A program made the translations under genes and the position numbers. A DNA stretch of 64,000 bases from the NCBI GenBank assembly GCA_020629635.1, contig JAHDCX010000017.1, positions 1-64,000 on the forward strand, read 5' to 3'. Source of the DNA: Acidimicrobiales bacterium (GTDB taxonomy: Bacteria; Actinomycetota; Acidimicrobiia; Acidimicrobiales; SHLQ01). Position 1 is the stretch's first letter. Each line of letters opens with the position of its first letter. The notes under the pieces are model-generated. The model searched no databases and was not told where the DNA came from. It saw only the letters and a program-made list of their open reading frames with translations. Shown here in pieces: positions 31,634 to 35,169 of the stretch.

Positions 31634-32170
31634 TTAGGGAAGACGACCGACGTGGGCCAGCGCTCGTCGGACGAGCTTCTCATGGCCCGGAGACAGCTCT
31701 GCGGCGACCGTTGGGCTGACAACTTCGTCGGGCCGGAGCCATACGAGATCGAGTGCATCCTGGGACGGCTCGCAGTCACCCTCGACCGGGACGACGTAGG
31801 CGAGGCTCACCGCGTGCTGGCGGGGGTCGTAGAAGCCCGTGATGTCCGGGTTCGGGAAGTACTCGACCACGGTGAAGGGCTGCGGCGATGGCGGGATCCG
31901 TGGAAGGGCAAGCGGTCCGAGGTCTTTCTCGAGATGTCGGAGCAGCGCATCTCGGACACGCTCGCCGTAGAGCACCCGTCCGGACACGACCTCGCGGTTG
32001 ACCTCGCCCGTTGCATCCAGGCGGAGCAGCAGCCCGAGGTGGCTGACGACGCCGAGGTCGTCGGTGCGAACCGGGATGGCGTTCACGTAGACGATCGGCA
32101 TCTTGCCGCGCATCGTCTCGATGTCGTCGTCGGACAACCAGGAACTCTGCGTGTCGGTGAGGTCGCTCAT
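31634..32170 (-). CDS. NUDIX-like protein of the DUF4916 type
   Basis: 178 residues. The fold pattern is NUDIX-like (PIVYVNAIPVRTDDLGVVSHLGLLLR, GRVLYGERVRDALLRHLEKDLG), but the catalytic GX5EX7REUXEEXGU box is degenerate: GRVLYGERVRDALLRHLEKDLG keeps Gly and some acids but lacks the REUXEE core. It resembles the actinobacterial DUF4916 group. TACCGT lies 8 nt before the ATG, predicting a leaderless transcript. Activity is uncertain. Confidence 0.78.
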   Translation of the reverse strand: MSDLTDTQSSWLSDDDIETMRGKMPIVYVNAIPVRTDDLGVVSHLGLLLRLDATGEVNREVVSGRVLYGERVRDALLRHLEKDLGPLALPRIPPSPQPFTVVEYFPNPDITGFYDPRQHAVSLAYVVPVEGDCEPSQDALDLVWLRPDEVVSPTVAAELSPGHEKLVRRALAHVGRLP

Positions 32171-32224: not shown

Positions 32225-33139
32225 CTACGACGTGGAGGCGAGGTGCTGATCGAACCACGCTGTCAGGTGGTCGATCGCCGGCTCGACGAACTTGGGGTTG
32301 TCGTACAAGTCGATGTGGTTGGTGGTGTCGAGCCAGCGGATTTCGGCGTTGTCGCCGGACCGTTCGACGATCCGGGCGGCCGCCTCGGGTGAGCAGAAGT
32401 CGTCGGTGCGGCCGTGGACCACGAGGAACGGGGTTTCGCCCAGGAAGTCGGCGCCTTTGGCGGCGTCGAACGTGAGGAGCTCGCGGATGGAGAGCCTGGT
32501 GATCTGGTTGCGCCAGCCAGGCGCGGCCGAGCGATCCGTGCCGTAGTAGTCGAACGGTTCTTGACCGGGCATCGCCGCCGCAACATCGGGGTTCTCGGAC
32601 ACGGCATTGATGTACTCGATTTCGCCCGACTCGACTTCGGCGGCGGCGACCTCCGCGAGGTCGGCCATCACGGCTCGGTAGCCGTCGGTGCCCATCCCGG
32701 CTTGCATGTCTGCTGGGTCGTTGAACGCCGCAGCGACGACACCGAGCGCTTTGACTCGAGGATCGAACGCAGCGTGGCGCAGGGCATAGCCCCCTCCCAT
32801 GCAGACGCCGACGACGCCCACCCGTTCGGCGTCGACGTCGGGGTGTTCGGCCAAGGCGCTCGTGGCGGCGAGGAGGTCGTCGAGTTTGCCCATGGCGTCC
32901 TCGTGCTGTCGCCGAGCCCCGCCGCTCGCGCCGAAGTTCCGATGGTCGAAGGTGAGAGTCGCGTACCCGCGCTCGGCGAGCGCGGTGGCGTAGATCGCAA
33001 CCACCTGCTCTTTGACCCCGGTGAAGGGCCCGGTGAACACGAGCCCTGGGTGCGGCCCGGATCCGTGCGGCAGTCGGAGCTCGCCAGCGAGTGGGATGCC
33101 GAAGGCGTTGATGGTGAGGGGATGGGTTTCGAGGGTCAT
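32225..33139 (-). CDS. Dienelactone-hydrolase-like alpha/beta hydrolase
   Basis: 304 residues. The nucleophile elbow reads VGVVGVCMGGGYALRH, with Cys in place of Ser, as in dienelactone hydrolases. The acid is in LVVHGRTDDFCSPEAA and the base in TTNHIDLYDNP. GPFTGVKEQVVAIYATALAERGYATLTFDHRNFGASGG is typical of this hydrolase group. Substrate unknown. It lies about 50 bp downstream of the redoxin gene on the same strand. Confidence 0.87.
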   Translation of the reverse strand: MTLETHPLTINAFGIPLAGELRLPHGSGPHPGLVFTGPFTGVKEQVVAIYATALAERGYATLTFDHRNFGASGGARRQHEDAMGKLDDLLAATSALAEHPDVDAERVGVVGVCMGGGYALRHAAFDPRVKALGVVAAAFNDPADMQAGMGTDGYRAVMADLAEVAAAEVESGEIEYINAVSENPDVAAAMPGQEPFDYYGTDRSAAPGWRNQITRLSIRELLTFDAAKGADFLGETPFLVVHGRTDDFCSPEAAARIVERSGDNAEIRWLDTTNHIDLYDNPKFVEPAIDHLTAWFDQHLASTS

Positions 33140-33189
33140 GGGTGAGGAATCCCCATTCGATTCTCAGTCATTCCCAAAAGCGCCACACG

Positions 33190-33660
33190 TCACTTCTGTT
33201 GCTCGAAGATCACTTTGCGAATCACTTCGCTGGCGGTGAAGCGGCCGATCGGACCGGACGAATAGACCGAGATCGAGACGGTGCCGTCTGGAGCGAGCAA
33301 GAAGCCAGTGGCATGCAAGAACGTCTTGTCGCCGGTCTGGATCATGGCCCCGGTCGCCTCGGCGACCGCGTGGGCGTCGAGCTCACCGGCCATCGGAAAC
33401 CCGACGTGCAGCCCAGAACGAAGCGCGGCGGTGGACTCGACCGAATCGACCGACGCGCCGATGACCTTCACGCCGAGGTTCTTGAGCGGGAGTCCGTGTA
33501 CTGCGAAGTCAACCAACTGGTGACGGCAATACGGTCACCAGTCGCCTCGGTACAGCAGGATCGCCGCCCAATGGCCAGCGACCGAGGCGGTCAGGTCGAT
33601 CGGCTCACCATCGTGAGTGCGCCCCATGATCGAGGGCATCGTGTCACCGGTCTGAAGCAT
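33190..33660 (-). CDS. Peroxiredoxin-like redoxin with in-frame TGA at the UxxC site, probable selenoprotein
   Basis: Reading through one TGA gives 156 residues from the ATG at 33660. The TGA (33537-33535) is codon 42, in the motif YRGDW-U-PYCRHQL, exactly where redoxins of this group have the first cysteine of CxxC. Homology-like sequence continues on both sides in the same frame: the N-terminal GDTMPSI start, and the downstream LGVKVIGASVDSVESTAALRSG and ATGFLLAPDGTVS blocks. The frame downstream is intact for 114 codons, not decayed. A stem-loop with a bulged U and an AGUU loop follows the TGA at the spacing of bacterial SECIS elements. The alternative is a nonsense mutation or sequencing error. 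No sel genes are in the window. Confidence 0.72.
33508..33537 (-). promoter_or_regulatory. Candidate bacterial SECIS element
   Basis: In the mRNA, the UGA is followed by 10 nt, then the stem GUCACC / GGU-U-GAC (six pairs, one bulged U) with loop AGUU. The loop begins 16 nt after the UGA, at the short end of the known 16-37 nt range, and has G at loop position 2. A competing 9-bp hairpin, ACTGGTGAC / GTCACCAGT (33542-33516), would bury the UGA in its stem. Confidence 0.5.
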
Positions 33661-33700
33661 GGAACGAACCTAGCAATCGGCGGCTGCCCGATTCGAGTGC

Positions 33701-33711
33701 CAGAATCAGGC
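33701..33711 (+). promoter_or_regulatory. -10 box of surface paralog 1, leaderless type
   Basis: CAGAAT at 33701-33706, five bases, then the ATG at 33712; no ribosome site. It lies about 40 bp from the divergent redoxin start. Confidence 0.45.
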
Positions 33712-35169
33712 ATGGCGAACTCCGGCGGCTCGAGCGTCGTGATCGAACTCCACGACGGAGACTCGACTTCGCCCGTCGTCGACCCCCGGCCGCCCGGACG
33801 GGGTCGGGGGTGGGTGCCGGTGGTGCTCCTGTGGGCGATCGTGGCAGTTGGCGTGCTCGCCGTCGTCCGGCCGGGGGGCGGGGATCCGGAACCCGACGAC
33901 GTCGTCACCCCATCAACCACCACGATCACGACCCCGAGTGAGGCAGAGGTGACCGCACGCGTCGAACGGGTCGATGGCGCCCGGGACTTCAGCGCCATCG
34001 TCGATGCGGGCAACGGCTACCTCGCGCTGCGGTGGAAGAGCGACGACGGACTCCCGAAGCTGCATCGATCCCTGGACGGCACCGACTGGAAGACACTGCG
34101 CATCACCGGCGATCGACTCGTCGATCCAGAGATCGACTACGTGACGACCTTCGGGCCGCTCACCGTCACGCCCGAGGGTTGGGCGCTCATGGCCACCCGC
34201 AGGATCGGTGCGGTGACGACGGCGGCGATCGACCGTCTGGAGTCTCGGGACGGCCTCGACTGGCGGCTCGATCCGGACTTCGTGTGGGATGTCGCCGACG
34301 GGCAGACGACCATTCTCGAACACGATGCGTCCACGGTCGTGCTTCTCGAACGACGCCAGACCGGCTCACCGCTCCTTGCCGAGTTGCTCGACGACGCGCT
34401 CGCGGACCAACTCGCTGGTCAACCGTGCGCCGTCAACTCGGTCGGGTCGACGCTGCTTGTGGAGTTGTGCCGCGGTGGCGGGACACGAGTTTCTGCCGAG
34501 GACACCGTCGCACCCGAGCTATTCGACGAGGTACGCCTTTGTGCCGCCCATCTCACGGCACGGCCGGGCGGCTGGTCGAACATCGTTGTGCTCCACGACA
34601 TCGCCACCGCAACGTCGGTACGCCATGACATCTCCGACACCGCGTTCACCGGTTCCAACCTGGTCGAGGGAGGGGTGGTCATCCTGGACACGGCCCGATC
34701 AGCGTCGGACGACATCGGCACCGCATGCGACGGGTTGGTCGATATCGCGCCCTCACCTCCGCCACGGGCAATCTTCGTCACCGTCGATGGGCGCACAGAC
34801 GTCGAGCTGCCCGTCGCCGAGTCCGTCGAGTACCTCCCAACGGCCTCGGTCGGTCGTGGGGATTCGGTCGTGTGGTGGGACGGCAAGACGTTGTGGGAGG
34901 TATCGCCGAGCGGTGAGTCGACCGTTCTGCTGGAGCGCCCTGACGACGTCGCACCCGGCCGGATCGCCATCCTGTCTGACGACGCAACCTCGCTCGTTCT
35001 CCAAGACTGGGATGGGCTGGCCGTCGCCCACCTCGACGGACCGACACCACGTTGGCAACAGGTCATCTTCGACGACGTCCTGCCCAATGCGTCGTTGTTC
35101 GAGGTCGACGACCGAAACATCTTCCTGACGAACGGCGTCTCGTTGTTCCGAGTCGAGGTCACCCAGTGA
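33712..35169 (+). CDS. Membrane-anchored Asp-box surface protein, paralog 1
   Basis: 485 residues, function unknown. A cytoplasmic tail with VVIELHDGD is followed by one membrane helix (about 33-52), a Thr-rich linker, and a long extracytoplasmic domain. The domain has two S-x-DG-x-x-W motifs (SLDGTDW and SRDGLDW) like Asp-box hairpins of beta-propellers, and four conserved cysteines shared with three paralogs in this region (pair at about 240 and 255, then one in VRLCAAHL and one in GTACDGLVDI). The stop overlaps the next paralog's GTG (GTGA), so the two are one operon. Confidence 0.75.
   Translation: MANSGGSSVVIELHDGDSTSPVVDPRPPGRGRGWVPVVLLWAIVAVGVLAVVRPGGGDPEPDDVVTPSTTTITTPSEAEVTARVERVDGARDFSAIVDAGNGYLALRWKSDDGLPKLHRSLDGTDWKTLRITGDRLVDPEIDYVTTFGPLTVTPEGWALMATRRIGAVTTAAIDRLESRDGLDWRLDPDFVWDVADGQTTILEHDASTVVLLERRQTGSPLLAELLDDALADQLAGQPCAVNSVGSTLLVELCRGGGTRVSAEDTVAPELFDEVRLCAAHLTARPGGWSNIVVLHDIATATSVRHDISDTAFTGSNLVEGGVVILDTARSASDDIGTACDGLVDIAPSPPPRAIFVTVDGRTDVELPVAESVEYLPTASVGRGDSVVWWDGKTLWEVSPSGESTVLLERPDDVAPGRIAILSDDATSLVLQDWDGLAVAHLDGPTPRWQQVIFDDVLPNASLFEVDDRNIFLTNGVSLFRVEVTQ

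Follow-up and report, generated by a model that had tools for sequence, protein, structure and literature searches.

The window, the whole 64,000-nucleotide stretch of Acidimicrobiales DNA analysed here, carries on its minus strand, from 33660 to 33190, a frame of 156 codons whose sole internal stop is a TGA at codon 42, within the motif RGDW-U-PYC (Table 1). The frame continues for 114 sense codons beyond this TGA, and the Pfam AhpC-TSA profile runs straight across it (residues 5-128, E 3.9e-18, 66 bits against a cut-off of 26). Translation thus agrees with a sequence-only reading of this DNA, which had described a single in-frame TGA at codon 42 of RGDW-U-PYC, redoxin-like sequence on both sides of it and 114 undamaged codons downstream. 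That reading also held that a standard gene call would report only a truncated TTG-start fragment from 33516, and under the standard code the only open reading frame left is indeed a TTG-start fragment of 108 amino acids at 33190-33516. A GTG-start open reading frame on the plus strand (33142-35169) lies antiparallel over the redoxin gene; its true start is probably an ATG at about 33712. No match to the probable alpha/beta hydrolase gene that comes next downstream was found beside the redoxin in the relatives' loci. A NUDIX-like gene, named by eye and matching window positions 31634-32170 with 86-88% identity, adjoins the redoxin in three relatives only (L023, L025 and L026); in the window the probable hydrolase separates the two. 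As the neighbourhood is not conserved, no function is drawn from the neighbours.

Table 1. Features of the redoxin locus, in window coordinates
Feature	Position	Strand	Remarks
Predicted gene of a 156-residue selenoprotein, a Prx-like UxxC redoxin	33190..33660	-	begins with ATG at 33660 and ends in TGA at 33190-33192; single internal TGA; AhpC-TSA along its length; shared by 29 genomes
Candidate UGA codon for Sec42	33535..33537	-	TGA in 29/29 orthologs; Cys in 10/10 remote homologs compared
Cys45, partner cysteine of UxxC	33526..33528	-	invariant in both alignments inspected
SECIS-like stem-loop, lower stem and upper hairpin	33498..33532	-	right behind the UGA; 37 nt after the UGA fold with MFE -13.3 kcal/mol; near-frozen synonymous sites
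Core hairpin GUCACC-AGUU-GG(U)UGAC, 17 nt	33508..33524	-	six pairs in 28/28 orthologs; G at second loop position; loop starts 16 nt past the UGA
Probable alpha/beta hydrolase gene (named by eye)	32225..33139	-	open reading frame; next gene downstream, 50 bp off

The internal TGA is a shared feature of a group of related genes. A full-length ortholog is present in 13 of 19 genomes of the family, the source genome included, and each has exactly one TGA, in the identical column every time, and ends in an ordinary stop (TAG, TAA or TGA). Among 297 genomes of the order the TGA form occurs in 24, of which 16 lie outside the family search. The total is therefore 29 genomes (13 of the family and 16 further ones of the order), all with one TGA in the same column and no other stop, at identities that reach down to about 40%. 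The motif is U42-P-Y-C45 in the window, and one ortholog, L073, has USFC. A search of genome contigs for related loci yielded a single true ortholog, from an Acidimicrobiales MAG (L049), which reads identical to the ortholog L056 of order genome G264. In genome G017 a second redoxin fragment, TGA included, sits at the end of contig C2 (L036/L079) besides the full copy and is probably an assembly duplicate.

Stop-free relatives are remote. Five of the 297 order genomes carry a form with TGC or TGT at column 42, and in 396 genomes of the phylum two Cys forms are the only other strong matches. All ten remote homologs compared have Cys at the Sec column, making the motif CxxC. In a tree of the 29 Sec and 10 Cys rows a single branch separates the two forms (support 100/99, recovered in 200 of 200 bootstrap trees); the order of Sec and Cys events is uncertain because the tree is long-branched and only midpoint-rooted. 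Four other loci from related genomes (L039, L040, L044 and L048, at about 1501-1970) hold frames of approximately 410-477 amino acids with SAVW-U-PPCRTQL or SADW-U-PWCRAQL and one TGA each. These frames probably represent a second UxxC selenoprotein family, of which the source genome has no copy at the threshold used.

The 33 bases that follow the TGA are almost frozen, synonymous sites included. Across 14 sequences the mean synonymous homozygosity of the 11 codons after the UGA is 0.87 versus 0.52 elsewhere in the gene, an excess reached in none of 20000 permutations. In this stretch Arg is CGT in 14 of 14 sequences, Leu is TTG in 13 and Val is GTT in 13, while the adjacent Gln pair is coded CAA then CAG, the first being His in two of the 14. 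The same bases can fold into the hairpin GUCAAC-AGUUG-GUUGAC; the window has the variant GUCACC-AGUU-GGUUGAC with a bulged U. Its six base pairs form in 28 of 28 orthologs tested, as against 2.8% of codon-resampled draws that preserve the peptide. In L073 one stem pair is changed on both sides, from A-U to G-C; covariation alone is thin, as most other stem pairs are invariant. The bSECIS model calls for a loop of 3-9 nt with a G among its first two positions, a stem of 4-16 bp, a loop 16-37 nt after the UGA and an MFE of at most -7.5 kcal/mol (PMC13188914). The window hairpin satisfies this model, having the loop AGUU (G second, U third), six base pairs and one bulge, a distance of 16 nt and an energy of -13.3 kcal/mol. 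In some orthologs the lower stem is slight or missing, and their 37-nt folds of -6.9 to -7.4 kcal/mol fall narrowly short of -7.5. When the window sequence is folded alone and compared with shuffles the hairpin energy is unexceptional (z -1.03), so the case for a SECIS is a comparative one; an Rfam search at the locus gave no match above chance. In E. coli fdhF, taken from the genome, a comparable 17-nt hairpin begins 11 nt past the UGA, compared with 10 nt in the redoxin gene.

The genome (4.45 Mb, 96.5% complete) has the machinery that decoding of this codon would demand. SelD, selA, selB and tRNA-Sec all score above curated cut-offs; selA and selB are adjacent on contig C28, which also holds the tRNA-Sec, confirmed by ARAGORN with anticodon TCA. 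On direct translation SelD (L001:1501-2415, minus strand; genome contig C13:133404-134318) has an in-frame TGA in GAGUGCKL, a position that we take to be the usual Sec site of Sec-containing SelD, and it is probably a selenoprotein itself. Across the order selA is found in 175 of the 297 sampled genomes, namely in 23 of the 24 with the TGA form versus 152 of the 273 without it (Fisher p 4e-5, a value that overstates the case because related genomes are not independent). No selA match was obtained in two of the genomes that have the TGA form, both of them incomplete: G016 (73% complete, family search) and G087 (80%, order search). Six of the 19 family genomes carry selA and lack the redoxin ortholog, hence Sec decoding in the family is independent of the redoxin gene.

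How else could the TGA be read? A nonsense mutation that left a pseudogene, or a Cys codon miscalled through sequencing error, would look just the same in a single assembly with one internal stop. However, the TGA recurs at this column of an otherwise intact frame in 28 further genomes, down to about 40% identity, and these independent occurrences lead us to reject an explanation that we rate as extremely unlikely. The frame would likewise be open if UGA had been reassigned genome-wide, for instance to Trp or Gly, but the redoxin gene itself and several of its orthologs terminate in TGA. Moreover, selA, selB and tRNA-Sec are present, and the homologs have Cys in this column, neither Trp nor Gly. 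With TGA serving as the terminal stop of the very gene in question, reassignment is rejected as vanishingly improbable. The UGA might instead be a true stop separating two products, an N-terminal piece of 41 residues and a TTG-start piece of 108 residues, the latter being the open reading frame that a gene caller would report. Two separate pieces would break the predicted fold apart at its active site, and the Sec machinery and the Cys homologs favour one chain. The conservation of the TTG is accounted for by its being a Leu codon within the hairpin. We regard two products as very unlikely.

Based on these observations, we propose that the product of the gene is a small Prx-like thiol oxidoreductase and that the UGA at codon 42 is almost certainly decoded as Sec, given that 28 related genomes keep both the TGA and the hairpin and that the full Sec machinery is present. 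The sequence-only reading had called a likely selenoprotein, and the conserved TGA, the hairpin, the machinery genes and the Cys homologs all point the same way. The Cys that it expected at this column in related redoxins is there in the ten remote homologs; the four genes that it proposed to look for, selA, selB, selD and tRNA-Sec, were all found; and relatives keep the TGA instead of showing the further stops or frameshifts that it named as evidence to the contrary. Insertion would proceed through selenophosphate supplied by SelD, conversion of seryl-tRNA-Sec to Sec-tRNA by SelA and binding of SelB to the hairpin immediately downstream of the UGA, where SelB would bring the Sec-tRNA and so replace termination.

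An AlphaFold2 model (pLDDT 94.4, pTM 0.90) confidently predicts a peroxiredoxin fold for the redoxin, with the first active-site helix beginning at residue 43, right after Sec42. Among solved structures the model best matches peroxiredoxins of the Bcp, Prx5 and AhpE types, with Z of 19-21 across some 150 residues, and a viral structure library returned generic peroxiredoxin and glutathione peroxidase matches only. In alignment to peroxiredoxins the Cys of TPVC corresponds to Cys45 and the Thr to Sec42, which places a thioredoxin-like UxxC active site on a predicted peroxiredoxin fold. The classical peroxidatic TxxC motif is absent, Sec standing at the Thr position, and no NCBIfam equivalog scores up to its curated cut-off (best of the named peroxiredoxin equivalogs 43.7 bits versus 211). 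We infer that Sec42 is the nucleophile and Cys45 the resolving residue, the reverse assignment being also possible. The Sec42 selenolate would attack a peroxide or disulfide substrate, Cys45 would then resolve Sec42 as a selenenylsulfide, and a cellular thiol system would reduce the latter.

How does the redoxin relate to known selenoproteins? One ortholog, out of 14 members, weakly matches the SelL-related redox protein model NF040769 (7.4e-6); the motif of SelL is UxxU and that of the redoxin UxxC. Sec peroxiredoxin (Prx, TxxU) shares the fold and the Pfam domain, but its Sec is peroxidatic, whereas in the redoxin that site is Cys45, and Sec occupies the Thr position three residues before it. 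Proteins of the 'peroxiredoxin family / redoxin domain' type with CxxC, for example WP_033718792.1 (Mycobacterium kansasii) and WP_264777680.1 (Deinococcus aetherius), are 38-45% identical over nearly the full length and share RGxWCPYC, yet they have Cys in place of Sec and fall on the opposite side of the tree. UxxC Prx-like selenoproteins (pfam00578) were described from Sargasso Sea and GOS marine metagenomes in 2005-2008 (PMC1088965, PMC2398784) and also appear in a review of 2026 (PMC13188914). The redoxin belongs to this published kind, a placement made by described features. Like 'Prx-like 1' of these accounts, it combines an AhpC-TSA domain, Sec as the first residue of a thioredoxin-like UxxC, a SECIS right behind the UGA and common Cys homologs. 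Compared by description, it differs in that its clade is seen in one actinobacterial order only and in that the SECIS sequence is strongly fixed.

The novelty lies in the lineage: every member of the clade has Sec, one SECIS is conserved throughout, and among the genomes sampled the clade is seen only in Acidimicrobiales. The motif strings WUPYC, WUPFC and WUPPC returned nothing relevant in the literature searched, in which selenocysteine is scarcely mentioned together with Acidimicrobiia. We tentatively suggest, as a possibility somewhat short of an even chance, that the clade is an uncatalogued subfamily with one origin in one actinobacterial order, always Sec in the sampled clade and endowed with a near-fixed SECIS of its own; Sec may then be functionally required and not interchangeable with Cys. 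The gene is a clear example of annotation truncating a selenoprotein to a 108-residue fragment. It adds a selenoprotein to an actinobacterial order that carries selA widely and for which such proteins have hardly entered the literature searched, and the all-Sec clade beside the Cys clade provides a defined pair for asking what Sec buys a UxxC redoxin.
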